39,621 nt of DNA, taken from the IMG/VR virus record IMGVR_UViG_3300004460_000357, positions 1-39,621 of that record; one strand, written 5' to 3'. How positions within the stretch are numbered: position 1 is the first letter of the stretch; each line of letters opens with the position of its first letter. Both the position numbers and the translations under genes were made by a program. This stretch comes from a virus. The notes under the pieces were generated by a model. The model was not told the DNA's origin, searched no databases, and worked only from the letters and a program-made list of their open reading frames with translations. Positions 3,339 to 35,610 of this stretch are shown here, in pieces.

Positions 3339-3339
3339 C

Positions 3340-3525: not shown

Positions 3526-3531
3526 TTATAA

Positions 3532-3819
3532 ATGGCCTCTGAGTCTAAGCTACAAACTAAAATAATTAAAGCCCTTGAAAAAGAGGGCTTTGTTGTAATT
3601 AAAATAGTCATAGCTAATAAAGCTGGACACGCGGATATTATTTGTTGCGCGCCTAACGGAAAGTTCTTTGCTATAGAAGTTAAAGACAATGATACGCCCA
3701 GGGCTTTACAAGAGTACCAATTACAGCGATATCAAAACAATAACGCCATAGCTTTTTGGTGCGATAGTTGGCAAATGTTTACTTCTATGTACGATTCAGT
3801 AAAACACTTACTTATGTAA
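3532..3819 (+). CDS. VRR-NUC-type nuclease
   Basis: The 95-residue protein has the minimal PD-(D/E)XK core of the VRR-NUC family: an N-terminal helix (SESKLQTKIIKALEK), GHADII in place of the usual GxPD, then FAIEVKDND carrying the catalytic Glu and Lys, and a helix with Gln residues (RALQEYQLQRYQ). Phage VRR-NUC proteins are thought to cut branched DNA such as Holliday junctions or replication forks. It is the last gene of the rightward DNA-metabolism operon and is followed by the structured element at 3880-3972. No clear Shine-Dalgarno is visible. Confidence 0.8.
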   Translation: MASESKLQTKIIKALEKEGFVVIKIVIANKAGHADIICCAPNGKFFAIEVKDNDTPRALQEYQLQRYQNNNAIAFWCDSWQMFTSMYDSVKHLLM

Positions 3820-3879
3820 GCCAGTAAATGGCATTCAGCCAAGCCAAAGAAAAGTCCTTTAAAATCAATAACTTAGACA

Positions 3880-3972
3880 AGCTCCTATAAGCTCCCGTAT
3901 CAGCTTTAAAATTAGGCCTATATAAACACCTTAGGAACATTTTAAAACGCGATACGGATAAAATGAGGAGCG
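3880..3972. repeat. Long interrupted inverted repeat, copy 1 of a two-copy structured element
   Basis: In the 186-bp gap between two converging operons the sequence forms a segmented stem: AGCTCCT (3880-3886) with AGGAGC (3966-3971), CCGTATC (3895-3901) with GATACGG (3951-3957), and TTTAAAAT (3905-3912) with ATTTTAAA (3939-3946), around an AGGCC-containing loop. The same plan occurs at 26242-26334 with a different but still paired middle segment. There is no T-run, so it is not a standard intrinsic terminator on either strand. A bidirectional stop, RNase site, protein-binding cruciform or replication site are all possible. Confidence 0.7.
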
Positions 3973-4005: not shown

Positions 4006-4443
4006 TTAGCCAAGTAATGCAAGTATTAGCGAATATGCGGCACCTGCCATTGCAGCATACAGCAAAGCTTTATTAGCTCTTTGATCATCTTTATTATGAT
4101 ATTGCATCGCGGACCTTATGTGACAGTAGGCAGCAACTATACCGAGTCCTTGACGCAACGGAATATTAAAATATACGCCAGTTTGCATTAGCGTATCTGT
4201 TACAGCTAAATTTAAGTACGCTGCAGACCAAGGCAATAACCAATACAAGTTATCTAATGTTTCTCCAGCAAAGCCAATAAATACCCCAATAATAAACCAG
4301 TCTTCTGTTTTTAATGCTTTGCCTCGTTTAGCTTTAGCTACAACAACTTGAGTTGACTTGTACCAAAGCGTAACAACTAATACAGACAATACAATAGTTG
4401 TTATTGTTAAACCGCTAGACAGTAATTCAGCTATCTTTGACAT
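4006..4443 (-). CDS. Polytopic membrane protein at the end of the late operon (possible holin)
   Basis: The 145-residue protein has about three to four hydrophobic segments: residues 11-28 (TITTIVLSVLVVTLW), 50-60 (IIGVFIGFAG), 105-112 (GIVAAYC) and 127-144 (LLYAAMAGAAYSLILALLG), with charged loops between. It is the last gene of the leftward late operon and follows other membrane proteins and a putative wall enzyme. A lysis role such as a holin is therefore likely, but this is from context. It overlaps the preceding gene by 17 nt. Confidence 0.6.
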   Translation of the reverse strand: MSKIAELLSSGLTITTIVLSVLVVTLWYKSTQVVVAKAKRGKALKTEDWFIIGVFIGFAGETLDNLYWLLPWSAAYLNLAVTDTLMQTGVYFNIPLRQGLGIVAAYCHIRSAMQYHNKDDQRANKALLYAAMAGAAYSLILALLG

Positions 4444-4690
4444 TATTGCTCTCTTCTATTTTAACTAATACTGATGCACTCAATTGCTCTACTCCATCCA
4501 TGCGACCTTTTAAATAGTTCATATCGCCAGTAAGAGATATTAACTTTTCTTTTGCCTCCTCGTGCATTGTTTCGCACTTCTTTAGCCTTTCTTGTTCTCT
4601 GTTGGAAGCAGCAACTAGTAATTTCCATAATACGCCAATTACAGCAACTAAACTAGTTATTACAGCTATAGACTCTGGCCTAATATCCAT
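4427..4690 (-). CDS. Small membrane-anchored coiled-coil protein (possible spanin or holin component)
   Basis: The 87-residue protein has one N-terminal transmembrane segment (about residues 8-27, AVITSLVAVIGVLWKLLVAA) followed by a charged heptad-like helix to the C terminus. This topology fits an i-spanin or a class III holin/antiholin. It sits in a run of membrane proteins after the tailspike and DUF5675 genes, and its start overlaps the stop of the gene before it at base 4690. No o-spanin lipoprotein was found nearby. Confidence 0.6.
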   Translation of the reverse strand: MDIRPESIAVITSLVAVIGVLWKLLVAASNREQERLKKCETMHEEAKEKLISLTGDMNYLKGRMDGVEQLSASVLVKIEESNNVKDS

Positions 4691-5199
4691 TACCGTTTAA
4701 ACACTCCGCCAGGTCGCGAACCAAACCACCAACCTACGCACATTACAGCTAAGTATACGGCGGCGTTTACCATATCGTGTAATAAGCCAGTTAATTCAGT
4801 CGGGCTAAATGCATCCAACCCACCCACAGTTTTCCATACAGCACCAAACAAGATAGATACGGTAATCAATAAATAAAACGTTATACCAGGCCGCACAAAG
4901 CGCAAAACGCCTTCCACTTTGTTGCCGTGTGTTTGAGATAAACCAAATGCCTGTAACTCGCCTTCTTCTATAGTTATGGCGCCTTCTACTTTAGCCCGTT
5001 CCATCTGCTTATCTGCCATGTCTAATTCATGCGTACGCTCTAATCTCGATTCAGCAATATCTAGCCTACGCATAGCTTCTTCGTATCTATACTGTTCTTT
5101 TTTAGCTTTAGCTTCAAAAAACTTAGACACCATGCCGCCAAGCAAGCCGGTAATGCCTGCCGCCCCAGGACCTACAAAAAGATCAACTAACCAATCCAT
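4690..5199 (-). CDS. Membrane protein with central coiled coil (3TM holin-like)
   Basis: The 169-residue protein has a glycine-rich hydrophobic N terminus (GPGAAGITGLLGGMV), a long charged helix (residues 28-75, rich in E, K, R), and two C-terminal transmembrane segments (FYLLITVSILFGAVW and AAVYLAVMCVGWWFG). This matches the layout of phage 3TM-holin-type proteins often found near tail genes. A good Shine-Dalgarno (GGAGGTGAT) lies just upstream of the ATG. It probably acts in lysis, but no experiment-based family assignment is possible from sequence alone. Confidence 0.65.
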   Translation of the reverse strand: MDWLVDLFVGPGAAGITGLLGGMVSKFFEAKAKKEQYRYEEAMRRLDIAESRLERTHELDMADKQMERAKVEGAITIEEGELQAFGLSQTHGNKVEGVLRFVRPGITFYLLITVSILFGAVWKTVGGLDAFSPTELTGLLHDMVNAAVYLAVMCVGWWFGSRPGGVFKR

Positions 5200-5213
5200 C
5201 TATCACCTCCAGT

Positions 5214-5594
5214 TCAAACGCTTTTTTTGTTTACAGTTTCTGCAAATTTGCGCAATGCATATCGGCTATTTAATACAGCTAAACTGCCGGCTAAATAGCC
5301 TGTCCGCATACCTATAATTAGACAACCTTTAGTATGCGCTCTAACATTACCATTGTGTATTAAAATACCGCTTCGATTTTCAACTTTAGTTACGTGAAAG
5401 CACGGTTTATACTTTCCAGAACCAGAGCGCTCCAAAAAGTTAACTCGATAAGTATCAGCAGGGATGCAAGATGTGTTTCTTTCATTGTTTTTCCACGACG
5501 GTTCTAGTATATAGAATATTGCGCTGTTTATAACTAAACAACCTAGTGTTTCTGCGCTGGTTCGTTTAAACCTAATTAGCTTAGCTTTCATCAT
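5214..5594 (-). CDS. DUF5675-family protein, candidate cell-wall enzyme
   Basis: The 126-residue protein has the family pattern: an opening IRFKRTSAETLGCL, then ILEPSW, SCIPADTY (usually SCIPAGxY), VENRSGILIHNGN and TKGCLIIG, and a C-terminal SRYALRKF helix. The IHxGN...TxGC arrangement resembles the His/Cys active site of YkuD L,D-transpeptidases. The family has no confirmed function. No other lysozyme, amidase or transglycosylase is recognisable in the genome, and this gene sits between the tailspike and the membrane proteins, so it is the best endolysin candidate. That is inference. Confidence 0.75.
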   Translation of the reverse strand: MMKAKLIRFKRTSAETLGCLVINSAIFYILEPSWKNNERNTSCIPADTYRVNFLERSGSGKYKPCFHVTKVENRSGILIHNGNVRAHTKGCLIIGMRTGYLAGSLAVLNSRYALRKFAETVNKKSV

Positions 5595-5605
5595 AATACT
5601 GTAAT

Positions 5606-7735
5606 TTAAAGTAGTACGTTAACATTTATGCGTTCATTAGCGTACGCATTAGTCCAGTATAAGACCAACTTACCGTTTGTAAGCGCTGTAGCTTTTGATG
5701 TACCTGTAGCAATAGTATCAACTGCCGCGGATATAGCAAAATCGGCGCCTATACCGGTGTTAGCTTTAAATATTTCTTTGACTGTAGCTACAGTAGAAAC
5801 TACACCGCCCGCAAAGTCGTATGTTATTGAGGCAATATTTTTTTCAGCAAATCGATAGTTTACATTAGCGCCAGGATTTGCATTAGCAGTCATTAGCAGT
5901 TCAACCACCATAGGATCAACAAACGGTATTTCAATGTAAGAATCTGTGCCGTCATCTTTAATTTCTAGCCAATTTTTCATGTACCCAAAATACTGTATAT
6001 TTGGTGAATTCGTAATCGACAGTAAATCTTTATTATCACCATTTATGTTAGATATTTCGTAGTTTTGTGTATTTCCACCTGCTATTGAAATTGACGTAGT
6101 ACCGGCGCAATTTTCAAAGTCTAAATCTTTTAGCTTAACTGTGCAAGCTTCGTTAGTGTTAATTTGAATCGGAGTAGCTAATAGCTCTTTAAAATCACAG
6201 TCGATAAATTCAGTTGTGCCACGTGCTGCTGCAGATAGCATATCTAAGGCATACATTGTTGTACTTTGTGCATAGTTAACATTAGTTTTTAGCCCGTTGA
6301 ACTCGCAGCCTTTAAATACTAATCTATGCGCGCTAGTACCATAGTTTTTAATTGCTGCGCCAAAGCAGTTTCTGAATGTGCAATCGCTAAAAGTTAAATC
6401 GCCAACTGGGGCAGTAGTAACATTTCGTGTTCTTACATAGCCTTGAAATGTGCTAGAGTCTTGCGCGTTTTTAACAAAAGAGCAGCCAATTACGCGCGTA
6501 TTTTTAACTGTAGTACTTGCCCAATCAATTGCGACTATTGCAGCATAGTTAAATGTACAGGCTGAAATAACGGAATCCTCAGAGCCAATAAACATTTGCG
6601 TATTGGACACGTAAAAATCGCACCCATGCATTATTGAGTTTCTAGCGCTAAACGTTACTGCTGTAGACGCATTATCGAATATGCAATCTGCAATTACTCC
6701 GTCACTGCCAGAAAAAATACACCCGCTAGCCGGAAAAGAAGCAAATACATTTCTAATTGTATATCCTGGTATAAGAGCAATAATTGGATTAGACCCCCCT
6801 TCCATCCAAATATCGTTCAGCGTAACAGGTGCACCACCACCGTCTTGTGTATCGTCGCTTCTATAGCCAAGTTTGAACGAACCTGTAGCACTCATAAAAA
6901 CGTGTGCGCCGCCACCACTAATAGTCTGACCTTTTCGTACCCATACTGCACCTAATACAACAAAGTCGCCGCCTTCTAAGTCTAATTCAACTTGATTTAC
7001 GTCGGCATAAATTTTGTCCGCTTGTAGCGCTTCATTAAATGCTTTAGTATCATCTGTTGAACCATTACCAACTGCGCCATACTGAAAAGGATTTACTTTA
7101 TTTGTATAATTTCTTTTCCACTCAGTGCCATCGGCAGTCCAAAAGTAACCGTGTTGCGCACTTTGACCTGTAGTTGATCCTGTGCCGTCAAAACCGCCAA
7201 TAGAGCTAGCGGAAACTGCCGTTCCTTCTGTTGGATTAACATTTGTGCCGCCGGTTTTGTGGAGAGTAAAGCTACCTTTAGGGCCTGCTGTTGTTGCTGC
7301 CCAGCCTGCTAAGTAGGACTGTATGTATACTTGACTTTGGTCTGGTGTTGTTAGTATAAATTCACTAATAGACGGATACTTAACTAAAGACAGATTAAAA
7401 CGCTCTTTAACTGTTGTAGCGGCATCATAAGCGTCATAGCTTAATACCCATTGCCCAGAACCTTCATTAGGAGCAATGAATTGGAAATTGTCCACAGTTT
7501 CAGCTGAAGCAGCAGCAAACCGATAAAATCTAACCTGAGAGTTAGTAACATAGGTGCAATGAGAATATTTAGCTGTGTCTAACCGCTGTACTTCTATAAT
7601 AGAAGTAACAACCCAAGGTAGGTCTATTGCGCCTAAATCTTGACTAATGCCTTGTCGAGATTGCGTGATAGAACCTTGACCTAAAGCTAAGTCTTCTTGT
7701 GTTATTAACGCTTTTGTTATGATACGCTCTGTCAT
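5606..7735 (-). CDS. Tailspike with right-handed beta-helix (pectate lyase-like)
   Basis: The 709-residue protein begins MTERIITKAL. Its first 110 or so residues are a virion-anchor domain shared with the 202-residue protein upstream. A neck follows, then FQYGAVGNGSTDDTKAF (residues about 215-231), the hallmark start of pectate-lyase-3/tailspike beta-helices. Many short imperfect rungs run to about residue 590, then a C-terminal domain. It should bind and probably cleave host surface polysaccharide; the catalytic residues are not identifiable by eye. An in-frame GTG/ATG further upstream (to 7843) is rejected because MTERIITKAL aligns exactly with the start of the paralogue. Confidence 0.88.
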   Translation of the reverse strand: MTERIITKALITQEDLALGQGSITQSRQGISQDLGAIDLPWVVTSIIEVQRLDTAKYSHCTYVTNSQVRFYRFAAASAETVDNFQFIAPNEGSGQWVLSYDAYDAATTVKERFNLSLVKYPSISEFILTTPDQSQVYIQSYLAGWAATTAGPKGSFTLHKTGGTNVNPTEGTAVSASSIGGFDGTGSTTGQSAQHGYFWTADGTEWKRNYTNKVNPFQYGAVGNGSTDDTKAFNEALQADKIYADVNQVELDLEGGDFVVLGAVWVRKGQTISGGGAHVFMSATGSFKLGYRSDDTQDGGGAPVTLNDIWMEGGSNPIIALIPGYTIRNVFASFPASGCIFSGSDGVIADCIFDNASTAVTFSARNSIMHGCDFYVSNTQMFIGSEDSVISACTFNYAAIVAIDWASTTVKNTRVIGCSFVKNAQDSSTFQGYVRTRNVTTAPVGDLTFSDCTFRNCFGAAIKNYGTSAHRLVFKGCEFNGLKTNVNYAQSTTMYALDMLSAAARGTTEFIDCDFKELLATPIQINTNEACTVKLKDLDFENCAGTTSISIAGGNTQNYEISNINGDNKDLLSITNSPNIQYFGYMKNWLEIKDDGTDSYIEIPFVDPMVVELLMTANANPGANVNYRFAEKNIASITYDFAGGVVSTVATVKEIFKANTGIGADFAISAAVDTIATGTSKATALTNGKLVLYWTNAYANERINVNVLL

Positions 7736-25026: not shown

Positions 25027-25123
25027 TAAATTTATTGTATTACTACGGCAGTCATTTATGAGCCAAATATGCATAGTTTAATAAATTTATTGTATTACTA
25101 TAGCAGTCATTTATAAGCCAAAT
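25022..25123 (+). repeat. Two 47-bp direct repeats after terL
   Basis: Copies at 25022-25068 and 25077-25123 differ at only three or so positions and lie 55 bp apart. Each begins with the perfect palindrome AATAAATTTATT and ends AGCCAAAT. The first copy contains the terL stop codon. They begin the 1.6-kb low-coding region and may belong to an origin, an end-processing site or a transcription-end region. Confidence 0.75.
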
Positions 25124-25217
25124 CTTCTAAAAGAAGCCCTAAGGCCGATTCTTGCCCCGGGCCTATAAAATATAAAACAGTAGTAAGAATCACTATCATT
25201 ATCACTACTATTATCAT
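25107..25217 (-). CDS. Putative single-span membrane peptide
   Basis: The 36-residue frame encodes MIIVVIMIVILTTVLYFIG, a clear transmembrane helix, followed by a short acidic tail (GPGQESALGLLLEDLAYK). The ATG has GAGAAGAG 7 nt upstream. It is on the strand opposite to terL and in a repeat-rich region; its 3' end lies in the second 47-bp repeat. A longer frame extends to 25316 but lacks a good ribosome-binding site. It may be a chance frame, so confidence is low. Confidence 0.35.
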   Translation of the reverse strand: MIIVVIMIVILTTVLYFIGPGQESALGLLLEDLAYK

Positions 25218-25245
25218 TAATAGCTCTTCTCTTATAGCGATAGCG

Positions 25246-25261
25246 GACGGCAATAGCCGTC
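25246..25261. other. GC-rich hairpin GACGGC-AATA-GCCGTC
   Basis: A perfect 6-bp stem with a 4-nt loop stands out in an AT-rich region. It has no following T-run on either strand. It lies 30 bp upstream of the promoter at 25291-25319 and may insulate it from terL transcription. Confidence 0.45.
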
Positions 25262-25290
25262 TACTATAGCAACAAGGTATAATAAAGCTG

Positions 25291-25319
25291 TTTACTTTTA
25301 TAGCAAAGACTGTCATAAT
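25291..25319 (+). promoter_or_regulatory. Sigma70-type promoter TTTACT-N17-CATAAT
   Basis: TTTACT at 25291-25296 and CATAAT at 25314-25319 are separated by 17 bp. The same form occurs at 26576-26604 and 35022-35050. It is placed to transcribe the small genes at 25358 and 25572. This supports use of host RNA polymerase. Confidence 0.6.
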
Positions 25320-25574
25320 GTTATTAACAAATCAAAACAACCGACGAGATTACTACTATGCTTGCTATTATTAATGCTGAATCAATTTTATTCGATGCTA
25401 TACAAGATAATGACAGCGACTTTAAAACTACGTTTGAGCCAGTATTAAAAGAGCTACAAGCATGTATAACGCATAAAACAACACTGATGAGTCGTGCAAG
25501 TGCAGACTATGTTAATGCTTGCTAATGTTTTATGTTATTAACAAATCAAAACAATCGACGATATTACTACTATG
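25318..25574 (+). repeat. Duplicated 43-bp gene leader
   Basis: The 43-bp sequences at 25318-25360 and 25532-25574 differ at two positions. Each ends in the ATG of a small gene, so the leader and start were duplicated as a unit while the coding sequences differ. The second copy has lost the GAG that may act as ribosome-binding site in the first (GACGAG to GACGAT). Confidence 0.75.
25358..25525 (+). CDS. Small acidic protein of unknown function
   Basis: The 55-residue frame MLAIINAESILFDAIQDNDSDF...ADYVNAC reads as a plausible helical acidic protein. It has a promoter 40 bp upstream and a leader shared with the next small gene. Translation signals are weak (GAG 10 nt before ATG). Such small early genes beside promoters are often host-takeover proteins; here that is only a possibility. 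Confidence 0.5.
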   Translation: MLAIINAESILFDAIQDNDSDFKTTFEPVLKELQACITHKTTLMSRASADYVNAC

Positions 25575-25676
25575 AATATTACAACATGTGTAAATAAAGA
25601 AGTGATAATATTGACTGACGTTAGCGATACTGAAGTAGACTTTATTACAGAACACTATAGAGCTATAGAGCTATAG
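25572..25676 (+). CDS. Small gene truncated by an 8-bp tandem repeat
   Basis: The frame MNITTCVNKEVIILTDVSDTEVDFITEHYRAIEL stops after 34 residues inside the tandem repeat AGCTATAG at 25661-25684. If the repeat had one unit in place of three, the frame would stay open to the TAA at 25777-25779 and encode about 30 more residues (…TTNCLILSGEYLNTLLIDF…), which look protein-like. The gene therefore looks disrupted or phase-variable by repeat expansion. Leader shared with the gene at 25358. Confidence 0.45.
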   Translation: MNITTCVNKEVIILTDVSDTEVDFITEHYRAIEL

Positions 25677-25684
25677 AGCTATAG
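25655..25684 (+). repeat. Short tandem repeat (AGCTATAG)x3
   Basis: A CTATAG followed by three exact 8-bp units. Each unit contains the palindromes AGCT and CTATAG. Eight is not a multiple of three, so copy-number change shifts the frame of the small gene it lies in. Confidence 0.85.
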
Positions 25685-25796
25685 AGACAACTAATTGTCT
25701 TATCCTGTCTGGCGAGTATTTAAACACTTTGCTAATCGATTTTAGTAATAACACAAACATACATATCAAACATAACTAATTATAATTGGGGGTGGA

Positions 25797-25860
25797 GAAC
25801 TAATAGCTAAGTGATTGGAATGGCGGTGAATTACTTTTGGGTTCAAATCCAAAAAATCCA
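25797..25860 (+). other. tRNA-like relic
   Basis: TAGCTAAGTGATTGGAATGGC (25804-25824) reads as positions 8-25 of a tRNA, with a 4-bp D stem (GCTA/TGGC) and GG in the loop. TTTTGG-GTTCAAAT-CCAAAA (25835-25854) resembles a T arm, though its loop is 8 nt. Only about 10 nt lie between them, so the anticodon arm is missing, and the ends do not form an acceptor stem. A TATAAT box lies at 25781-25786. This is a decayed tRNA gene, an attachment-site remnant or a small RNA, not a working tRNA. Confidence 0.4.
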
Positions 25861-25951
25861 TTACTATTTTTCTATAATACTAAAAATCTATATTTATTAA
25901 AGACTAAAACACCCCCCCTAATATATACTATACCGGGATACGGATTTTTCG

Positions 25952-26162
25952 GATTTGCTCCCCTTTAAGAAACTTATTTTTTATTACTTTTTGGAATATA
26001 CTTTATTCGCTCAATTTTACTACACTTACCTGCCTAATCTATTTATCCTAAATTGCCGATTTGCTCCCCTTTAAGAAACTTATTTTTATTACTTTTTGGA
26101 ATATACTTTATTCGCTCAATTTTACTACACTTACCTGCCTAATCTATTTATCCTAAATTGCC
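25952..26162 (+). repeat. Tandem repeat, two copies of about 106 bp
   Basis: Copies at 25952-26057 (106 bp) and 26058-26162 (105 bp) are identical except for one T in a T-run. Each begins GATTTGCTCCCC and ends TTTATCCTAAATTGCC. No convincing gene is present; a 62-codon frame across it is low-complexity. TTATCCTAA resembles the DnaA box TTATCCACA at seven of nine positions, once per copy. An origin or end-processing role is possible. Confidence 0.9.
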
Positions 26163-26241
26163 CGTTAATTACTTTAATGCTAGTGATAGCAGCAAATTAC
26201 ACTATTCGTAAGTCCTTGATTTTTATACAAATTTTTCATCA

Positions 26242-26334
26242 AGCTCCTGTAAGCCTCCACACCGTGTTTAAAATCAGGCCCTGATGATCATATCAGTTCA
26301 AATTTTAAACACGACACGGATTAAACCAGGAGCT
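26242..26334. repeat. Long interrupted inverted repeat, copy 2 of the structured element
   Basis: AGCTCCT (26242-26248) pairs with AGGAGCT (26328-26334), and CGTGTTTAAAAT (26263-26274) pairs perfectly with ATTTTAAACACG (26302-26313); CCGTG can also pair with CACGG (26315-26319). The loop holds AGGCC and a further small inverted repeat CTGAT/ATCAG. The design and key words match 3880-3972: outer AGCTCCT/AGGAGC, inner TTTAAAAT/ATTTTAAA, and a middle segment whose sequence differs but still pairs. The whole stretch 26163-26575 has no gene. Confidence 0.7.
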
Positions 26335-26575
26335 CAAATTTCGTCTAAAAACAGAGGTAATGCCAAAATCAGTCAAACAATAACAGTAAATGCACTATCA
26401 ATTCACCCGTATCCTTAAACCAAACATTTAGTTATGTCTATAAGAATATCATTAGTTATAGTTATAAACTCTAACGAAAGTGCTTACTTTTCTACTTCTT
26501 ACGTTTATAATTATAAGCATCAAGTCGACAAACTCAGGAATATAAGTTAAAGCGAGAATTACTTGAAAATAAATG

Positions 26576-26604
26576 TTTACAAGCAAGATTAACAACGTTA
26601 TAAT
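26576..26604 (+). promoter_or_regulatory. Sigma70-type promoter TTTACA-N17-TATAAT
   Basis: TTTACA at 26576-26581 and TATAAT at 26599-26604 with a 17-bp spacer are a near-consensus host promoter. It drives the rightward early block starting at 26640. The downstream leader CACAAACCAACAGGTAAA (26618-26635) is repeated exactly at 27805-27822 before another gene in the block and carries the AGGT ribosome-binding site. Confidence 0.75.
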
Positions 26605-26639
26605 TAACTTACACAATCACAAACCAACAGGTAAAGATC

Positions 26640-27080
26640 ATGTCAAATTCAAATGTTAAAAAAGTATACATCCCTTTAATTGAACTTCTTGAAGCAAACA
26701 AGAATAAGTCCATAAAAACGCTAATGCCTGAAATACTTGCGTTGACACAATCCAAAACACAAGCTAAGACTTATAGAGTTAACGAGAATGGCGAAGTCAC
26801 TCACGTATTCTGCTACTACCATAAACTATGGGAAGACGTTAGCATCGCAGAGTATGGAGCTAAGGCTAAAACAGCCTCTGGTCTCAATACCATGTGCAAA
26901 GAAGGCTTATCAAATTGGTCTAAACAACAACGTGATTACAAGAAAGCAAAATCACAGATATTAGATCAAGTTGTCGCCGGTACACTATCAGCCGATAAAG
27001 TTGAAGACACTTTGCATGACTTAGAGCAAGCTAAAGATCAAATTGTGCTTCGTGAAGACGGTCACGGCGAAGCAGAGTAA
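26640..27080 (+). CDS. Conserved early protein, paralogue of the gene at 35110
   Basis: The 146-residue protein is unrecognised but shares with the 166-residue product at 35110 the pattern GxVTHxxCxYxKxW, then GAKAxxASGxxxMxKEGxSxWSKQQRxxKKxK, and a C-terminal acidic helix. Both begin with a VKK.Y..LIE.L helix. The central Gly/Ser/Lys block and charged helix suggest nucleic-acid or protein binding. Each paralogue is the first gene after a TTTACA-N17-(T/C)ATAAT promoter, so both are probably expressed immediately after infection. Confidence 0.75.
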   Translation: MSNSNVKKVYIPLIELLEANKNKSIKTLMPEILALTQSKTQAKTYRVNENGEVTHVFCYYHKLWEDVSIAEYGAKAKTASGLNTMCKEGLSNWSKQQRDYKKAKSQILDQVVAGTLSADKVEDTLHDLEQAKDQIVLREDGHGEAE

Positions 27081-27086
27081 TTAGCT

Positions 27087-27557
27087 ATGTTAACACCACA
27101 ACTCATTAGCTACATTGATAAGCTGTCTAAAGAAGAGTTGGCTAATCAGCTCTTCATAGATAGCACAACTAGAGTACTGAATCGCAACGCCTATAACTTG
27201 GCTAAAGCTAAGAAATATGTCAGCATAATCGACTTAGACTCTTTAAAGTATATCAATGATAGCATCAGCCATAGAAAAGGCGACATCCTATTATTAAAAC
27301 TTGCAACACTACTGAGCAAGAATTTTAGTGACGTTTACCGTATCTCTGGCGATGAATTTGTGGTATTATCAGATTGTAACATTAACCCACAGCTTAAAGC
27401 TCTCCAGCATCAGTTTAAGATATTCAGCTTTGGTACTTCTACAACACTAGACAAGGCTGATTTAAAATTGCAAGCGGATAAACAACAGCGAGAGTCTTCA
27501 GGATTAAGAGCTCAACGAGGAGAACAACCGCCATGGTACCAGACGCATATTTCTTAG
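27087..27557 (+). CDS. Minimal stand-alone GGDEF-domain protein (diguanylate-cyclase-like)
   Basis: The 156-residue protein has the GGDEF signature set: DSTTRVLNR (25-33; usually DxLTGLxNR), IDLDSLKYINDS (48-59; metal-binding Asp49, Lys54, base-binding Asn57), SHRKGD (61-66), and the active-site loop RISGDEF (85-91). FSFGTS (113-118) and ADLKLQADKQ (124-133) match the family's C-terminal strand and helix. There is no sensory domain and no RxxD inhibitory site before the motif. The segment after SGDEF is shorter than in bacterial enzymes. It could make c-di-GMP or another cyclic dinucleotide, or bind GTP only. The 3' end overlaps the next gene by 25 nt. Confidence 0.8.
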   Translation: MLTPQLISYIDKLSKEELANQLFIDSTTRVLNRNAYNLAKAKKYVSIIDLDSLKYINDSISHRKGDILLLKLATLLSKNFSDVYRISGDEFVVLSDCNINPQLKALQHQFKIFSFGTSTTLDKADLKLQADKQQRESSGLRAQRGEQPPWYQTHIS

Positions 27558-27827: not shown

Positions 27828-28277
27828 ATGCACAGCAATCAAATATTAGCTTTAATCCAAGCAGACAAATTCTACTTAGTTAAAGTCCGATTTAAACACA
27901 ACAGTCAGTCACAAGGCATTACGTACAGCGACAAAACTTATACTTATAAAGTTCCTAAGTTTGTTAAACTTGAGTTAGAAGACGAAGTAATAGTTGATTC
28001 GCCTTTTAATGGTTTTGTCGTCGTGAAAGTTGTCGACATAATTGACGGCGGAGTACTGTACGACCAAGACTTTACTAACTCTAAAGGCTATAAGTGGATT
28101 GTGCAAAAAGTTTGCGCCGATCAATATTATAAGCACCTTGAACGTGAGTATGAAGCTGAGCAAGTACTTAAACAACACTTAACTAACAAAGCTCGTAAGG
28201 AAGCCATAGCTAGCATCAATGAAATGTTTGGCGAAGATTTGCTAACGAATTTAAACGAAGTATTAGCTATAAGGTAA
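27828..28277 (+). CDS. YTYKVP-domain protein, paralogue of the gene at 34464
   Basis: The 149-residue protein has a beta domain DKTYTYKVPKFVKLELEDEVIVDSPFNGF followed by VVKVVDI, then YKWIV, and a C-terminal charged helix (residues 100-149). The order resembles the small 3'-DNA-binding domain at the N terminus of PriA (YxVP...GxxVxV...GxV), but similarity is too short to assign. The product at 34464-34862 shares the YTYKVP, GD/ED-xAVV/VIV and Y-x-W-V blocks. A leader identical over 18 nt to that of the gene at 26640 precedes it. Confidence 0.65.
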   Translation: MHSNQILALIQADKFYLVKVRFKHNSQSQGITYSDKTYTYKVPKFVKLELEDEVIVDSPFNGFVVVKVVDIIDGGVLYDQDFTNSKGYKWIVQKVCADQYYKHLEREYEAEQVLKQHLTNKARKEAIASINEMFGEDLLTNLNEVLAIR

Positions 28278-28794: not shown

Positions 28795-28893
28795 ATGATA
28801 CTACTAGCGCTCGCAATTGCAACAGTAGCTGGCTGGTTACCGCTAACGTGGGCGCTAGTAGCTGTTATACTTTATATATGGTTAGGTAATTAA
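28795..28893 (+). CDS. Small membrane peptide
   Basis: The 32-residue frame is a single hydrophobic helix (MILLALAIATVAGWLPLTWA…). The start follows the preceding stop directly, with GAGGAAAG upstream as a good ribosome-binding site. The stop overlaps the next ATG (TAATG), so it is translationally coupled to the DnaA-like gene. Confidence 0.55.
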   Translation: MILLALAIATVAGWLPLTWALVAVILYIWLGN

Positions 28894-29330
28894 TGAATTT
28901 ATTTAAACTTACAACTAAAGACGGTGAACAATATTTGTTAGCTAATAACATGACTGTTGCGCTGTCTAGATATGAAACAGGCTATGTTACTAGTATAGAA
29001 CACTTGTCAGACAATGTCATAACAGTCAGCGAAAACAACACTGTTATAGCACCAAGCGAGTTACTTTACACTTTTTGTACAGTTAATAAGTTAAACATAG
29101 AGGCAGTGCAAAGTGCAGATAGATCAAAATATTTAGCTGAAGCTAGGAGAACTATAGCGTATTTATTAGAAACAGAATTAGCTTGCTCATTGAGTAGAAT
29201 TGCTGGGTTAATAAATAAAGACCATACTAGCGTAATGCATTACAAAGCTAGTATGGTCAAACAGCTGGAAGCTAAAGAAGGATTAGCTTATGAGTATTTA
29301 ATGAATTATTACAATGCTACGGCAGAATAA
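28893..29330 (+). CDS. DnaA domain IV-like DNA-binding protein
   Basis: The 145-residue protein ends in a helix-turn-helix close to DnaA domain IV: an entry helix (LLYTFCTVNKLNIEAVQS), then YLAEARRTIAYLLETELACSLSRIAGLINKDHTSVMHY. KDHTSVMHY matches the DnaA signature RDHTTVLHA that reads the DnaA box. The ATPase domain is absent; the N terminus (residues 1-60) is a different beta-rich domain. It may bind phage or host origins, or compete with host DnaA. It is last in its block, and its 3' end overlaps the opposing dUTPase-like gene by 14 nt. Confidence 0.78.
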   Translation: MNLFKLTTKDGEQYLLANNMTVALSRYETGYVTSIEHLSDNVITVSENNTVIAPSELLYTFCTVNKLNIEAVQSADRSKYLAEARRTIAYLLETELACSLSRIAGLINKDHTSVMHYKASMVKQLEAKEGLAYEYLMNYYNATAE

Positions 29331-29964
29331 TGCGATCTGCTACTTTGTTAGCATAATGCCACTCAAGCTTTTTATACAGCTCTTTAAATGTCATATCCTT
29401 ATTAGCGCCGTAAATTTCCATCATAACAGCATTATCTTCGCAGCCATTCCAATCTTTTTTATACGTACCCTCAAGGTAACCGTTATTCCAACGGAACATG
29501 TTGAGGGTATTTTTAATCATATACACCCAGTAAATTTCTTTTAAATCCATACCATAGACTAAACAAATAGCTAAGAATAGATCTATCCTCCAGACTCCAT
29601 CAGATAGCCCAGCAGCCAAGAATTCTTTTAAGTTGATACAAACATCAGAATTGTCTAAATCTTCGTAGGTGTAGCTATGCTCGACCGCATCTTGAATATC
29701 TGCAACAATGTCTTTTTCAATACCGTCAATTAAATAGCAGTTCATCATAAAGTGCCATATATCAATAAGCTCAATACGAACATTATCATAGTCGATCTCA
29801 GAGTGCTTCCACCATTTAAATCCTAAGGCATCTAGTAATTCACCTGTTTCAACTATAATAGCTTGAGCTTGATCCCACGGCTGTTGCTTCCATTGTGGGT
29901 GCAACTTAGTCTGTAAAGCGTTTTGCATTGTAAGCATTTCTTGCATCAATTGTTGATCATTCAT
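29317..29964 (-). CDS. Dimeric dUTPase/dCTPase-type nucleotide pyrophosphatase
   Basis: The 215-residue protein has the all-alpha dUTPase_2 pattern: IIVETGELLDALGFKWWK (residues about 36-53) with the metal-binding ExxE, ELIDIWHFMMN (about 65-75) with ExxD, and YMIKNTLNMFRWNNGYLEGTYKK near the C terminus (KNxxN and GYxxGxYKK). It hydrolyses dUTP, and perhaps dCTP, to the monophosphate; T4 gp56, which removes dCTP in a modified-cytosine phage, has been placed in the same superfamily. It is the last gene of the leftward replication block and converges on the DnaA-like gene. Confidence 0.85.
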   Translation of the reverse strand: MNDQQLMQEMLTMQNALQTKLHPQWKQQPWDQAQAIIVETGELLDALGFKWWKHSEIDYDNVRIELIDIWHFMMNCYLIDGIEKDIVADIQDAVEHSYTYEDLDNSDVCINLKEFLAAGLSDGVWRIDLFLAICLVYGMDLKEIYWVYMIKNTLNMFRWNNGYLEGTYKKDWNGCEDNAVMMEIYGANKDMTFKELYKKLEWHYANKVADRIILP

Positions 29965-29972
29965 AGTAACTC

Positions 29973-30086
29973 CTAAAGTGACGCAATAGCGTTGATTATT
30001 GTTGAAAAGAATAAGTAAGCTGCAAGTGTAGTTACTAGTATAGTAGCGCTGACAAAGAACTGTTTCCAGTTAAATTTAGTCTTCAT
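29973..30086 (-). CDS. Small membrane peptide
   Basis: The 37-residue frame MKTKFNWKQFFVSATILVTTLAAYLFFSTII… has a basic N terminus and one membrane span. It overlaps the stop of the upstream gene as ATGA and has TTGGAGC about 8 nt before its ATG. It fills the gap before the dUTPase-like gene. Confidence 0.55.
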   Translation of the reverse strand: MKTKFNWKQFFVSATILVTTLAAYLFFSTIINAIASL

Positions 30087-30280
30087 TTATTTGCTCCAAT
30101 GTTATTGTTCACTAACTCATCTGTATCACTCCTCTTTATGTTCTTTTGAAATTCTTTTAGCTTCGCATTAATTTCTTTATCAGAAAATTCGCAGCTAGGT
30201 AATTGCTTTACTGTATTACCGGCAGCTAAATAAGCTTGTGTAGCTAATTCTATTTCTTTGCTTTCTTTTTGTTTACTCAT
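30083..30280 (-). CDS. Small charged protein of unknown function
   Basis: The 65-residue protein is helical and charged (MSKQKESKEIELATQAYLAAGNTVKQLP, then KEINAKLKEFQKNIKR). It directly follows the primase-helicase gene with no gap. No family is recognised; a small replication accessory factor is possible. Confidence 0.6.
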   Translation of the reverse strand: MSKQKESKEIELATQAYLAAGNTVKQLPSCEFSDKEINAKLKEFQKNIKRSDTDELVNNNIGANK

Positions 30281-32524
30281 TTAGTCTTCCTCTATTTCAT
30301 TAAAAGGTTTCTTTGCTCTATATTTGCGTATTTGCGGTATATCGTAATAGTAAGACTTTTGACCGTTTAGCGTGGTCGGCACTTTAGTGAATTGTTTCAT
30401 ACAAGTATTTAGTCCACGCTTAGTACCTTTACCATCTGTCATTTCGTAATATAAATCTTGTAAGTCATTTTCATAAATTCGACCTTCAGCAGTCCCATTA
30501 AATATTTGAATTGCGTCATATTCAACAGCTAATTCTTCTAGTTCCATAAACATAGCATTAGAAAGTAAAAACGCTATACGTTGACCAGCGCCATAAGCAT
30601 TAGCTATTAGCTTTTTCTTATCTTCTGTGTCTGGTGGCGTCATATATTCATCATGGCTAAGATTGTCAACTTCCGTTGCTAAGTAGTAAGCAAAATCGTT
30701 AATTTCATTTTCTATAGCTTCTTGTACTGCGGCTACACCCCCAAAAGACTGAACCCATGCTTGTTCTCTTAAATTGTTAGGGCAACTAAATAGTGCCATT
30801 CGTCTGTCGTCACCTTCAACAAACAGTGGATTTCTATTAGCCGTCATAACAAATGTAGCGTTGTGAACGTAGTTAAAACCATCGGTGCGCATTTGCCTTA
30901 CCTGCACTTTATTTTTACCTGTGTAGGCTTTAATTTTGCCTAAGGCATTTTCTTTTTCGTCGTACCTAGTAAGTTGGTTACCATACTCATCTAGCTGCAC
31001 AAAATATTTGTCTAGTAGCCAACCGTTATACATTTCTAAAAACTCTTTGACTGTTGGTCTTGCTAAACTATCTTCACCAATTATCAGTTCAATAATCTTT
31101 ACTACTGTATCTTTACCTGCACCTGGTACACCTAAAAAATAAAGAACAACTGGTGAGTACTCAAATTTATCTAGCTTACGTCGCATAAATTTCAGTAAAT
31201 AGTTTCGCGTATAATTATCTGGCACTAAGGACTCAAGAAACTGTAATATAGCAACAGGTCTAGTGTATTTATCTGCGTATATGGCAGGTTCTTTAAAAAT
31301 ACTTAAAGCTAATGAAGGCGAAAAAGTATTAAACGCAATAGCATCAGTGCTGTTAAAAAAGCCGAAAGGCTTAGCCGGCGTACTAGTAACATCAACTAAT
31401 GGCAAAGTACTTTTAATTTCTTTGCGGCCTGGTGGATCAATAGCTATAGCTTCTACGTAACTGCAAAATTCTTGCTCTCTATTAAAAGCTTTAGATTTAC
31501 AACTAAGTACATCTGCGGCGTAATAGTTCATTCTATTGGGGTCATAGAAAGCATCAATAATTTCATTTCGCTTAGACATTAATTGCAACTTACCTTCTTG
31601 CCAATTTTCGTCATACTGCCAAATAGGTACGCCGTCAACAGAAGCACGCTCTTCTACCATAGGTTCGATTACAGTTGATGACAATCGAACTTTAGGCATT
31701 GGCGTACTAAACATATTGTTAATAACTTCCATAGCATCAACGTAAAGATCAACATCTACACTAGGATCAGCGCCAAGTATTCCGCTTACTTTAGATAAAT
31801 ACTCTGAGCCACGGCCTTCTGGAACGTCATCTGGAGCCAAATATTTTTTATCTACGTATTCGTCTGAATCCCTAAAATCTTTTGGCGTGAGAACTCTGAA
31901 GAGGTTAGGAATGACTTTTTTAGATCGAACAAAATTGTTTAATTGCGGTGCTAAGTGATTTACCCAAGTTTTTTCTGACAACTCGCGTTCTGCCAGCGAT
32001 ACTTTAACAGGCTTTAATGATTTTAATAAAGCTAGTACTTCTAATGGAGCTTCTTTTAATTCAACTAGCTTAAAACGCTCTTTAGTTTTATTTGCTTCTG
32101 AAGGCAAATAAACAAAGCCACCGTTAGAATAAAAGTCTAATCGCATTGCCGCAGTATTTAGTCTAAACGTGTCCGGCACTTCAGAAGAATACTTATAAAC
32201 TATAATACCTGCATTTAAGTCTGCACCTAAGTTATCTTTTTTACCTTTACTAATAAAATGAAACTTATATGTTGGGTCTAATGCCTTAAACAAATTATAC
32301 GTGGTTGTATCATCACAGTCTATAGCTATAATATCAGAGATGCTGCCTGTTATAACGCCGCCTAAAGGCGAGGCTTCTTCATTGAATTTTTTGGCAAAAG
32401 CTACGTTCCAATTCTCTGGAAACATAGGCAAAGTTTTCTTACCGTTAGCTAATCGTTTTAACTCACCACCTAGCGGAACTGTATGCCACTTTAAATCTAT
32501 ATAAGGTTTAATTGTTTTTATCAT
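30281..32524 (-). CDS. Primase-helicase (AEP-type primase with D5-like SF3 helicase)
   Basis: The 747-residue protein joins a primase to a replicative helicase. The N-terminal prim-pol-like part shows LGGVITGSISDIIAIDCDD (IDCD acid pair near residue 70) and MRLDFYSNGGFVYLPS. The helicase has Walker A GVPGAGKDT (residues 465-473, Lys471), Walker B FVQLDEYG near 504, and the motif C/sensor MTANRNPLFVEGDDRRM near 560, as in D5/SF3 proteins. It would unwind and prime phage DNA. It overlaps the small protein gene upstream by 17 nt. Confidence 0.87.
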   Translation of the reverse strand: MIKTIKPYIDLKWHTVPLGGELKRLANGKKTLPMFPENWNVAFAKKFNEEASPLGGVITGSISDIIAIDCDDTTTYNLFKALDPTYKFHFISKGKKDNLGADLNAGIIVYKYSSEVPDTFRLNTAAMRLDFYSNGGFVYLPSEANKTKERFKLVELKEAPLEVLALLKSLKPVKVSLAERELSEKTWVNHLAPQLNNFVRSKKVIPNLFRVLTPKDFRDSDEYVDKKYLAPDDVPEGRGSEYLSKVSGILGADPSVDVDLYVDAMEVINNMFSTPMPKVRLSSTVIEPMVEERASVDGVPIWQYDENWQEGKLQLMSKRNEIIDAFYDPNRMNYYAADVLSCKSKAFNREQEFCSYVEAIAIDPPGRKEIKSTLPLVDVTSTPAKPFGFFNSTDAIAFNTFSPSLALSIFKEPAIYADKYTRPVAILQFLESLVPDNYTRNYLLKFMRRKLDKFEYSPVVLYFLGVPGAGKDTVVKIIELIIGEDSLARPTVKEFLEMYNGWLLDKYFVQLDEYGNQLTRYDEKENALGKIKAYTGKNKVQVRQMRTDGFNYVHNATFVMTANRNPLFVEGDDRRMALFSCPNNLREQAWVQSFGGVAAVQEAIENEINDFAYYLATEVDNLSHDEYMTPPDTEDKKKLIANAYGAGQRIAFLLSNAMFMELEELAVEYDAIQIFNGTAEGRIYENDLQDLYYEMTDGKGTKRGLNTCMKQFTKVPTTLNGQKSYYYDIPQIRKYRAKKPFNEIEED

Positions 32525-32840
32525 TGCGCACCCACTTACCTAACGGAAAATAACCTTGATAACTCCAAGAGTCTGGATTTTGCTGTACTTCGTTATTGTC
32601 AGTAAGCCAAGGTGGGAACAGCGAAGCAAATATGCCCTCGGCTAACTCAGGCATACTAGTTTCTTTTTTAAGCGCGCTGTGGTAATGATTAAGCAATGGT
32701 GTTAAGCTACCTCTAGCTATGTCTAAGTTAAAATCAGCAATTAAGCGGCTTAATGGCACGCCTAATTGCTTACGTTCGTACAAAGTTAGCAGTAAAGATT
32801 TAGCTACTAACTTCCTTTTAGCTTTTGTTTTTGTTGCCAC
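32508..32840 (-). CDS. Small protein upstream of primase-helicase
   Basis: The 110-residue protein has a basic N terminus (VATKTKAKRKLVAKSLLLTLYERKQLG) and a helical middle (SRLIADFNLDIARGSLTPLLNHYHSAL), with a Trp/Pro-rich C terminus. I chose GTG at 32840 because GGAGAGG lies just before it; a TTG at 32852 would place that site in the coding region. It may be a helicase loader or replication regulator by position, but no motif supports this. Confidence 0.6.
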   Translation of the reverse strand: MATKTKAKRKLVAKSLLLTLYERKQLGVPLSRLIADFNLDIARGSLTPLLNHYHSALKKETSMPELAEGIFASLFPPWLTDNNEVQQNPDSWSYQGYFPLGKWVRNDKNN

Positions 32841-33904
32841 TAGCCTCTCCAAGATTTTGCTTTAGCTAACATAGCTTTAAACTCTACTATAGCTAATCGA
32901 CGCATGTACTGCTTATTTCGGCTAAAATACTCTTCTAATAGCTCTACAGGTAGTTTAGGCACGATCGCTACGGAAGAAGTACGATAACTGTTAGACTCTT
33001 TAACGCAACCATAATAACTTGAGTTAATCACTACAGTGTTTGTCATATTGCGATCTAAATACATTTGCAGTTCAGCTTGATTTTGTACAGGTATTTTGCC
33101 AGGATGCTTTTTAACAAAATGCTGATAACACGCTTCTTTAACTAGCATTGGACTAACGCTAGATAAGTACTCTAAATCAGCTATACCTTCATCTACATAT
33201 TCAGCAACTTTTTGCAAATCGTCAGTTTCAGACCACATTCGCGCTGTCAGCCACTTAAGATCAAAAGCGCTAACAGTTTGTCTGTCTCTTTCGAGCTGCA
33301 AATATTCTGGCTTAACGTTATACCCATATGTTAATTGTGTTTTACAAACAAATAAGCCTTTAACATATAGCTGACCAGGTTTGTCGAGCAAAATATCACC
33401 ATAACTAGTTTGCTTTATTGCACCAATATTATTTTGTAGCTGCAAACATATATCAATAATAGACTCTTTATTAGAATCACTCAAGCCAGCAATAACAACA
33501 GTCAAACCTTCATTCTTAGTTGCTGCTTTGTTTTCAACTATAGACAATAACTTAGTTTGGTATTGCTTAGACTCGCTAAACTCAGGGCGCCATTCAACAT
33601 TGTTATTGTAGAATACTACAGGATAGCCAAGGCGAGTTAGTACTAATAATGCTATTTTATAACCTTCTCCAAATGATCCTATGGTATCTTTATCATCTTT
33701 AGATGAACATCCTAATAGCAGTGACGATGGAGATAACTGTGAATACTTACTAAATAGCATTAGTTTGTCATCTATAAATTCATACTCAAATGGGCTGTTG
33801 CTGTCAAGCGCATTTTGAATTAGCTCTCTAACAGCTTCTTGCAAACCCCAATCTTTTACATAGTTAATACTCAAAGACAATTCGTAACGTTTTTCACTAA
33901 ACAT
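32840..33904 (-). CDS. GHKL-fold ATPase
   Basis: The 354-residue protein has the Bergerat ATP site of GyrB/Hsp90/MutL proteins: N box EAVRELIQNALDS (residues 23-35; Glu27, Asn31, Asp34) and a G2-type LLLGCSSKDDKDTIGSFGEGYKIAL (62-85). The usual DxGxG G1 box is replaced by SKYSQLSPSS. The rest does not match gyrase, kinase or MutL C-terminal domains. The SSK…IGxFGEGxK form resembles MORC/paraMORC-like phage ATPases. It is in the replication block and overlaps the next gene by 1 nt, so a DNA-handling or anti-host role is likely. Confidence 0.82.
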   Translation of the reverse strand: MFSEKRYELSLSINYVKDWGLQEAVRELIQNALDSNSPFEYEFIDDKLMLFSKYSQLSPSSLLLGCSSKDDKDTIGSFGEGYKIALLVLTRLGYPVVFYNNNVEWRPEFSESKQYQTKLLSIVENKAATKNEGLTVVIAGLSDSNKESIIDICLQLQNNIGAIKQTSYGDILLDKPGQLYVKGLFVCKTQLTYGYNVKPEYLQLERDRQTVSAFDLKWLTARMWSETDDLQKVAEYVDEGIADLEYLSSVSPMLVKEACYQHFVKKHPGKIPVQNQAELQMYLDRNMTNTVVINSSYYGCVKESNSYRTSSVAIVPKLPVELLEEYFSRNKQYMRRLAIVEFKAMLAKAKSWRG

Positions 33905-34127
33905 TCCGACTACCTCTATTAAGCATTTGTGACTTAAAAGACAGCACAGGAAAACCGCGGTAAAACATAAACGGTTTAGCGCCGGTCAGTTGAGGATGAG
34001 TAGTATCAGCTTTGAATAAATGCCTAAGATCATCAGCATGAACTAGTAACTTAGTTATGCGTAATTGCTTTGCTTGGCGTTGCTCTATATAAGCATCTAA
34101 GCGATCAAAAATGTTAGTCTTTTTCAT
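33897..34127 (-). CDS. Small protein of unknown function
   Basis: The 76-residue protein has a helical charged N terminus (MKKTNIFDRLDAYIEQRQAKQLR) and a second half with LTGAKPFMFYRGFPVLSF. No family is recognised. It overlaps the glycosylase gene by 14 nt and the ATPase gene by 8 nt, and so is part of the same leftward unit. Confidence 0.6.
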   Translation of the reverse strand: MKKTNIFDRLDAYIEQRQAKQLRITKLLVHADDLRHLFKADTTHPQLTGAKPFMFYRGFPVLSFKSQMLNRGSRNV

Positions 34128-34467
34128 TATTGTATTCCTTGTAACGGAGAGTACAGTTAGGACAGCGGTTTAATAAATCTTGCAATGCAGATTTACGGTT
34201 TATCTTAGTTAACAGTACGCCACGAGGCAACATAGCTAAATTAGGCTCAATAAGTGGCGACTCGTGTTTCATACCACGATTAAGCATTTCGGCAGCTAAT
34301 TCATCATGGCGCTGCACAAGTGCTTTAGGTTCTGCTTGGTTCATTATAGAATGACCGGCAATAGATTTGCCTTTATTAATAGCGCCAACAAACATATGGC
34401 ATTCTACATGCTCGCCGCCAAGATGTTTATTGCACAGTATCTGAGGTGGAACCATCCACATTCTCAT
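34114..34467 (-). CDS. Pyrimidine-dimer DNA glycosylase-like protein (DenV-related)
   Basis: The 117-residue protein matches the PF03013-type family: MRMWMVPPQILCNKHLGGEHVE at the N terminus, HMFVGAINKGKSIAGH, and QRHDELAAEMLNRGMKHESPL. By alignment Glu22 corresponds to the catalytic Glu23 of T4 DenV. DenV uses the amine of Thr2; here residue 2 is Arg, so the chemistry may differ. A Cys pair lies at the C terminus (RCPNCTLRYKE). It would begin excision repair of UV dimers in phage DNA. The start overlaps the upstream stop as ATGA. Confidence 0.75.
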   Translation of the reverse strand: MRMWMVPPQILCNKHLGGEHVECHMFVGAINKGKSIAGHSIMNQAEPKALVQRHDELAAEMLNRGMKHESPLIEPNLAMLPRGVLLTKINRKSALQDLLNRCPNCTLRYKEYNNEKD

Positions 34468-34862
34468 AATCTGTTAACTTTAGGCGTATTCGTATTGTCT
34501 TTGCGCCATTGTTTTTCTACAGCTTTTTGACTATTCCACCAAGATATATCAGCAATACAAGCAACCCAGCGATATTCGTATGGTTTAGTATAATCGATAG
34601 CAGGAATTTCGTGTACTTTTTTGACTTCTGTTAATTTGTAGCCCGTATTAGTTTCAACTACGGCTAAATCGCCAACTTTACAAAAAGCATCTTCAGGCAC
34701 TTTATATGTATATTCACGCTTACTAGTATCGCCAACAAAAGATGCTGAAATAGTGTAGAATGTGCCTTCTTGTTTTTTAGTTAATTCGTGCATGCTAAAC
34801 TCCATAGTGTGTGCAATTAGCATTGAAATTAGTATTGCTAGTAATAATAAGCTATTTTTCAT
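34464..34862 (-). CDS. Membrane-anchored YTYKVP-domain protein, paralogue of the gene at 27828
   Basis: The 132-residue protein has a hydrophobic N-terminal segment (residues 3-17) that could be an anchor or signal sequence, then the shared domain REYTYKVPEDAFCKVGDLAVVETNTGYKLTEV and YEYRWVACIAD. GAGAG lies about 6 nt before the ATG; the later ATG codons have no such site. It is the first gene of the leftward early block. Unlike its paralogue it has lost the charged C-terminal helix and gained the hydrophobic start. Confidence 0.65.
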   Translation of the reverse strand: MKNSLLLLAILISMLIAHTMEFSMHELTKKQEGTFYTISASFVGDTSKREYTYKVPEDAFCKVGDLAVVETNTGYKLTEVKKVHEIPAIDYTKPYEYRWVACIADISWWNSQKAVEKQWRKDNTNTPKVNRL

Positions 34863-35109: not shown

Positions 35110-35610
35110 ATGTCAGTTAAAAAAGCTTATGCAAATCTTATCGAATTTTTAAAAGTAAACGAAGACAAAAAAGTAAAAACAATTCTTGATGAAGTGGTTA
35201 CTATGTGTTCGGCTAAATCTGCCGGCTCTTCTGCTACTACTGTCCATCGTGATGAAGCTGGTATCGTTACTCACATTCGTTGTGGTTACTTCAAACAATG
35301 GCTGCCTATATCTCATGTTGAGTTTGGCGCAAAAGCAGGTTCCGCATCTGGTTTCAGCCCGATGAGTAAAGAAGGTACTTCTTTATGGTCTAAACAGCAA
35401 CGCGAAGCTAAAAAGTCAAAAGAAGACTTGCTACAAGGTGTTGCTTCTGGTGAAGTTGAAGCTTCTGATTTGGCTAATCGTTTAGAGCAAATTGAAGAAA
35501 CTCGTACTAGCACTTACAGTCATCCGTTAGGAACTGACACTGTTGAAGAAGCAATCGCGTTAACTTCTGCAGATTTAGATGCTATGTGTGAAGCAGAAGC
35601 CGCTGAATAA
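35110..35610 (+). CDS. Conserved early protein, paralogue of the gene at 26640
   Basis: The 166-residue protein shares the GAKA..ASG...M.KEG.S.WSKQQR..KK.K block (residues about 76-106) with the 146-residue product at 26640, and differs by an extended acidic C terminus (EAIALTSADLDAMCEAEAAE). It has a strong ribosome-binding site (CGGAG) and is followed at once by an intrinsic terminator, so it can be made as a short, abundant transcript. Function unknown; a DNA-binding or host-takeover role fits the expression pattern. Confidence 0.78.
   Translation: MSVKKAYANLIEFLKVNEDKKVKTILDEVVTMCSAKSAGSSATTVHRDEAGIVTHIRCGYFKQWLPISHVEFGAKAGSASGFSPMSKEGTSLWSKQQREAKKSKEDLLQGVASGEVEASDLANRLEQIEETRTSTYSHPLGTDTVEEAIALTSADLDAMCEAEAAE

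Follow-up and report, generated by a model that had tools for sequence, protein, structure and literature searches.

The question raised by this locus is whether a small phage protein that consists of a single GGDEF domain is an active diguanylate cyclase, a mere nucleotide binder or a relic, and how an active enzyme would serve the phage. The window, i.e., the whole stretch of DNA analysed, is a virus record of 39,621 bases. The features discussed are compiled in Table 1.

Table 1 Features of the GGDEF gene and its surroundings, positions in the window
Feature	Position	Strand	Basis or remark
Sigma-70-like promoter match, 11/12	26576..26604	+	consensus only; upstream of the preceding gene
Preceding gene, PHROG 10459 (function unknown)	26640..27080	+	6 bases upstream of the GGDEF ORF
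Stand-alone GGDEF protein gene	27087..27557	+	ATG start, 156 aa; Pfam, PHROG, tblastn, fold
D49-L-D-S-L-K54-Y-I-N57-D58	27231..27260	+	metal-binding Asp49, GTP-contacting Lys54/Asn57 by motif
G65-D66, base-recognition Asp	27279..27284	+	motif spacing; D66 Asp in 54/62
S87-G-D-E-F91 signature	27345..27359	+	SGDEF variant
Family tail K132-x2-R135-x3-G139-x-R141-x2-R144-G145-x2-P148	27480..27530	+	alignments, regex counts
Following small ORF, 89 aa	27533..27802	+	25-base overlap with the GGDEF ORF end; no Pfam/PHROGs match
Next ORF, PHROG 13551 (unknown function)	27828..28277	+	operon membership inferred

The protein and its place in the genome

The 156-aa protein scored 43.3 bits against Pfam GGDEF (PF00990, cut-off 23.8) and 41.3 bits against NCBIfam TIGR00254 (cut-off 37.4). 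Residues 11-153 matched PHROG 5594, the family of YuA gp44, with E=9e-20, a full-length match including the tail. The motif set named by the sequence-only reading, Asp49, Lys54, Asn57, Gly65-Asp66 and Ser87-Gly-Asp-Glu-Phe91, was recovered at exactly these positions; the metal- and GTP-binding residues of a GGDEF domain (D49, K54, N57, D66, D89, E90) are all present. The roles of Asp49, Lys54 and Asn57 are presumably those of the corresponding PleD residues.

An AlphaFold model built with 13 family sequences reached a pLDDT of 93.8 and a pTM of 0.86. It presents three helices, a strand, two helices, two strands, a helix, a strand, a helix and a short last helix. Foldseek listed 75 PDB chains at E<=0.001 with GGDEF-containing chains as top matches, and VIA-align superposed the model best on 3qyy (Z 15.2, 120 residues, 1.8 A) and also on PleD 2v0n (Z 13.9, 117 residues, 1.6 A); the proposed palm fold thus agrees with solved GGDEF domains including PleD. 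Among viral structure models, the best match was a protein of Bordetella phage CN1, followed by a 1,143-aa fragment. The predicted model also bears out the lack of a sensor domain, as only two short helices (residues 4-12 and 15-23) precede the palm. An inhibition site, defined as RxxD five residues before the signature, was rightly described as missing; the corresponding regex was matched by 1 of 62 family domains, compared with 14 of 88 bacterial GGDEF domains. The description of a shortened C-terminal part was correct in that a stretch is missing, but the gap is internal and the C-terminus is not truncated: the protein retains the last helix (residues 121-137), which is strongly conserved, as is the tail. 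Residues have been lost between the strand with SGDEF and the strand with SFG, and 44 remain from Gly88 to Lys132; the most frequent class of family members has 65 there.

By TerL identity (57% to MW202744, 51% to PH1, about 46% to VPMS1 and KF-1, 74% to contig L165), the nearest phages are Kafunavirus-type podoviruses. Neither an integrase nor a repressor was found among the 29 window proteins scanned against PHROGs, and a lytic lifestyle is plausible. A counterpart of the PHROG 10459 gene behind the terminase was present in 8 of the 11 terminase-bearing relatives compared, a comparison made without L170. The GGDEF gene occurred in none of these 11, of which L164 and L166 end before the slot and L168 covers part of it; in L165 other ORFs come after the conserved gene. 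Judged by this gene order, the GGDEF gene occupies a variable slot after a conserved gene of the early region, the pattern of a putative exchangeable early host-takeover gene. The narrow gap upstream and the overlap with the following ORF make one transcript likely. Promoter matches in the region were not in excess (18 found, 19.4 expected from shuffles). The terminase is followed by ~1.6 kb (25027-26639) in which no ORF is convincing, and the far end of this segment holds the best promoter match of the region (Table 1). No c-di-GMP riboswitch or any other Rfam family was detected in the window, and PilZ, EAL and HD-GYP domains were absent from the window proteins scanned with Pfam.

Two protein families of this region occur in pairs that flank the block 29317-34467: PHROG 10459 at 26640-27080 (+) and 35110-35610 (+), and PHROG 13551 at 27828-28277 (+) and 34464-34862 (-). 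The arrangement suggests a duplicated early-gene set. A 145-aa protein (28893-29330, +) contains only the DnaA C-terminal helix-turn-helix (Bac_DnaA_C, 36.3 bits) and has a relative in L022, another GGDEF-bearing phage contig. The gene at 34114-34467 (-) encodes a Pyr_excise protein (65.2 bits), a pyrimidine dimer DNA glycosylase like DenV of Vibrio phage VPMS1.

Relatives, conserved residues and the tail

Against 50,697 phage records, tblastn yielded 114 records with a match (limit E 10, many of them weak), 47 of them covering at least 80% of the query, with full-length matches down to E=2e-28. Full-length homologues among the matches listed belonged to Yuavirus (Pseudomonas) and Vojvodinavirus (Bordetella) at about 39-44% identity. 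The record of YuA gp44 is labelled 'contains diguanylate-cyclase domain; putative role in host cell conversion', and similar labels are found in the records of MP1412, PaSz-4, AN14, CN1, CN2, MW2 and FP1. Lysogens of Bordetella phage LK3, which carries a homologue, formed more biofilm, which the excerpted report ties to the phage GGDEF gene by correlation only (PMC8471281). GGDEF domains in phage polyvalent proteins were discussed by Iyer et al. 2017 as possibly interfering with or using cyclic-nucleotide signals (PMC5512222, in excerpt). With these annotations and papers preceding, neither the kind of protein nor the idea is new; the sequence-only reading was sound as an observation and well formed as a hypothesis, it concerns an already annotated family, and its implied novelty was overstated. 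In Yuavirus, the GGDEF gene also seems to be an accessory, present in 47 records (at least 80% coverage) compared with 61 records that have a YuA-like terminase (at least 80% identity). Two records deserve a remark. In Pseudomonas phage BL8 (L003) the GGDEF gene at 3001-3471 is unannotated and overlapped by a CDS in another frame (3221-3961) labelled 'anti-restriction', likely a misannotation. Sphaerotilus phage SN1 (ON165687.1), with Sphaerotilus natans as stated host, has a terminase that shares 99.6% identity with the one of Pseudomonas phage YuA.

A single-sequence scan of viral contigs revealed no relative, whereas profile scans succeeded. The IMG/VR profile scan provided 61 loci from 68 pattern matches, and a search with the family HMM through every open frame of loci L017-L029, L066 and L106-L163 and of the window returned 68 domain rows. 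The conservation set started from 67 rows, from which L162 (cut off) and L025 (an ordinary GGDEF) had already been excluded, and comprised 62 distinct domains once duplicates were removed. In an alignment with 15 Rabinowitzvirinae-type homologues 50 columns were invariant, including D49, D51, K54, N57, D58, H62, G65, D66, R85, G88-F91, K132, R135, R141, R144, G145 and P148. In the larger set, the invariance of D51-D58, including Lys54 and Asn57, is by construction, because these residues belong to the scan pattern DSLK[YW][IVL]ND. D49, G88, D66, D89, E90, K132 and R141 lie outside this pattern. D49, G88 and E90 were each kept in 61 of the 62 domains (one gap each) and D89 in 60 (one Ala, one gap); in the tail, K132 was present in all 62, R135 in 56 (5 Lys, 1 Ala), R141 in 60, R144 in 59 and P148 in 60. 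The base-recognition position was occupied by Asp in 54 domains, otherwise by Asn (5), Gly (1), Thr (1) or a gap (1). For the stand-alone relatives, a median dN/dS of 0.37 indicated selection (15 sequences; 80 of 105 pairs with 0.1<dS<2, the other 25 excluded for dS outside 0.1-2).

The first signature residue was Ser in 49 domains, Gly in 9, Ala in 2 and a gap in 2, thus the SGDEF form is the norm of the family. The remark that SGDEF variants are active in bacteria holds for ECA3270, which was reported as active, but an exchange of Ala to Ser at the first signature position inactivated VCA0965 (both in the excerpted text of PMC3974145). In the excerpted account of Hypr GGDEF enzymes, the GTP specificity of GacA is driven by Asp at the base-recognition position, and the cGAMP synthases carry Ser or Thr there (PMC6456294). 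The window protein has D66 at this position, matched by motif spacing, so that a synthesis of mixed dinucleotides appears unlikely from the residue.

The tail (K-x2-R-x3-G-x-R-x2-R-G-x2-P), in a loose definition, was found in 60 of the 62 distinct domains, and 54 of 68 family ORFs matched a strict regex. Its core was absent from all 88 bacterial GGDEF domains from genome-contig loci, a set itself gathered by pattern scan, and the strict form from 5,190 other open frames of the same loci. For the Lys/Arg pair of PleD, which we take to be K442/R446, motif spacing points to K132 as the counterpart; the structural alignment ends with residue 141 paired to 447, and the profile alignment places the tail elsewhere.

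The majority of the family domains, 46 of 62, reside in ORFs of 665-3,211 aa. The remaining 16 rows are in ORFs of less than 330 aa, and a single ORF on an Oxalobacteraceae MAG contig (L066, 107-865) accounts for two of these; it holds two partial domain copies in tandem, one with SGAEF, and represents a degenerate branch. InPase, RadC, LPD22 or LPD39 domains, or a match to a DarB-like antirestriction PHROG, were found in the giant ORFs tested, by domain content the make-up of polyvalent proteins. InPase was present in 14 of 52 giant ORFs, in several directly adjoining the GGDEF domain. The pairing also occurs as neighbouring ORFs: in L028 (pair 756-3740 and 4229-6829) an InPase-bearing ORF adjoins one with GGDEF and LPD39. 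A delivery of the giant proteins in the virion was not supported by neighbouring genes, as among ten compared with PHROGs eight were unmatched, one matched endolysins and one a family of unknown function. Stand-alone carriers had no conserved gene partner beyond genes common to related phages. Annotated records among the matches listed in plasmid searches were mostly ordinary GGDEF/EAL proteins. In a tree built by a quick method, a group of 47 rows (support 98) comprised the domains of giant proteins and L066, with the other stand-alone ones outside, and the window domain had a long end branch (0.96); viral and bacterial domains separated with weak support (58), and the order of events is not resolvable from this tree. 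As a new element, the tail unites the stand-alone phage GGDEF proteins with the domains in giant phage polypeptides, two sets for which no published connection was found in the literature searched. It is also a simple marker for collecting the family.

Function of the phage protein

We lean, at somewhat better than even odds, towards an active, single-domain and feedback-insensitive diguanylate cyclase that is made early to reset the c-di-GMP level of the host. The gene product would be a catalytically competent member of a GGDEF family of mobile elements, expressed with the early gene after entry. It would dimerize and form c-di-GMP from GTP without sensor input or I-site feedback, and thereby push up host c-di-GMP. 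The phage would most likely benefit by taking over the host, whose c-di-GMP-dependent behaviour (motility, pili, envelope and exopolysaccharide) may be reset during phage replication. Activity, product, dimerization, timing and benefit are all inferred. An enzyme is favoured over a relic or a mere binder because both acidic residues, the base-recognition residue and the Lys of the last helix are conserved; Asp at the base-recognition position together with the missing I-site argues for GTP-specific, feedback-insensitive c-di-GMP synthesis. The fused InPase of some members could remove the pyrophosphate released by the cyclase, an argument that is suggestive only, since InPase occurs in diverse polyvalent proteins (PMC5512222, in excerpt). 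The nearest tested precedent are the YIP peptides of PB1-like phages, for which the excerpted review describes a rise of c-di-GMP via the host cyclase YfiN, a decreased motility and an increased biofilm mass (PMC9145820); a comparable effect is proposed for the window protein. Against this reading count the Ser in place of the first Gly of the GGDEF signature and the accessory nature of the gene in relatives, as well as the conflicting placements of the counterparts of PleD K442/R446 and the negative Rfam, PilZ, EAL and HD-GYP results for the window. Isolated GGDEF domains without a dimerizing region are often weak, which also counts against activity.

The same Ser would fit a dead protein that binds GTP or c-di-GMP, or that acts as a dominant-negative subunit in mixed dimers and lowers or misdirects host c-di-GMP. 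Degenerate members such as the SGAEF copy in L066 exist, and a GGDEF domain on its own could pair up with host ones. However, 60 or 61 of the 62 domains retain D49, D89 and E90, although a mere binder could do without one or both of the acidic catalytic residues, and the lack of an I-site speaks against a c-di-GMP binder; we consider this alternative unlikely. Even further from our expectation, and very improbable, is a recently captured fragment of a host cyclase that decays without function in the window phage. The absence of the gene from slot-covering relatives, the variable slot and the long end branch would suit such a fragment. Yet the tail is that of the viral family and foreign to the bacterial domains compared, the ORF is intact with the whole conserved set, and the G+C content of the gene equals that of the genome (0.384 vs 0.381). 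Tail, intact ORF and complete set argue for an arrival as a phage-type gene.

An effect on immunity was also considered, in which the product, or GTP or a dinucleotide held by the protein, acts on CBASS- or Panoptes-type systems during entry. Such a counter-defence has been proposed in print for polyvalent GGDEF domains (PMC5512222, in excerpt). It would be in line with the company of the domain in giant ORFs, i.e., InPase, RadC, LPD22, LPD39 and the DarB-like antirestriction match, and with the gene annotated as anti-restriction that often adjoins the GGDEF gene in Rabinowitzvirinae. No immune system is known as a target, however, and PADLOC gave no match, nor did Pfam and PHROGs reveal a recognised anti-defence domain in the window neighbours of the GGDEF gene. 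To our knowledge, c-di-GMP, the predicted product, is not a common CBASS signal. Altogether we regard counter-defence as quite improbable. A wider reading, to which we likewise assign a low probability, takes the tail-marked GGDEF as a dedicated viral signalling enzyme, separate from host cyclases, whose output would override cyclic-dinucleotide surveillance, or act as a decoy for it, in the opening minutes of infection. The enzyme would act both as a free early protein and as a domain of giant polyvalent proteins that enter together with the DNA. Its unregulated output would be pulled forward by the fused pyrophosphatase in some members, and the invariant tail arginines may be part of an altered active site or a contact to a host effector. 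Destruction and sequestration of cyclic nucleotides are known from phages; an early phage-made cyclic nucleotide, if true, would be the opposite strategy.

Comparison with known systems

The palm domain of mCpol/OptS of Panoptes is distantly related to GGDEF in general, and OptS nearly lacks a linear GGDEF motif (PMC12657218, in excerpt). A specific relation found no support: the window protein has SGDEF where the linear motif of OptS is nearly absent, PADLOC was negative, and no mCpol/OptS chain was among the listed structural matches, a weak test. With the bacterial cyclases PleD, WspR, SadC and DgcB the protein shares the palm fold and the motif set, but it has no sensor or dimerizing domain, no RxxD, an internal deletion and an extra tail. 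The GGDEF domains of polyvalent proteins (Iyer et al. 2017) belong by the tail to the same domain family, whereas the window protein has one domain only, not the several of a polyvalent protein, and the shorter stretch from Gly88 to Lys132; in the accessible portions of that paper (PMC5512222) the tail is not described.

Closest are YuA gp44 and its counterparts in Yuavirus and Vojvodinavirus, stand-alone proteins of about 150-157 aa with the same catalytic set and tail and equally without an I-site, which align over the full length at about 39-46% identity. Their carriers are siphoviruses of the Mesyanzhinovviridae (Rabinowitzvirinae), whereas the window phage is a Kafunavirus-like podovirus, its GGDEF gene has no recognised adjoining anti-restriction gene, and the upstream gene differs. 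YuA on P. aeruginosa PAO1 offers a direct test system for the question raised by the YuA annotation, and since the tail joins the stand-alone and the giant-protein GGDEF domains, the question becomes testable there.
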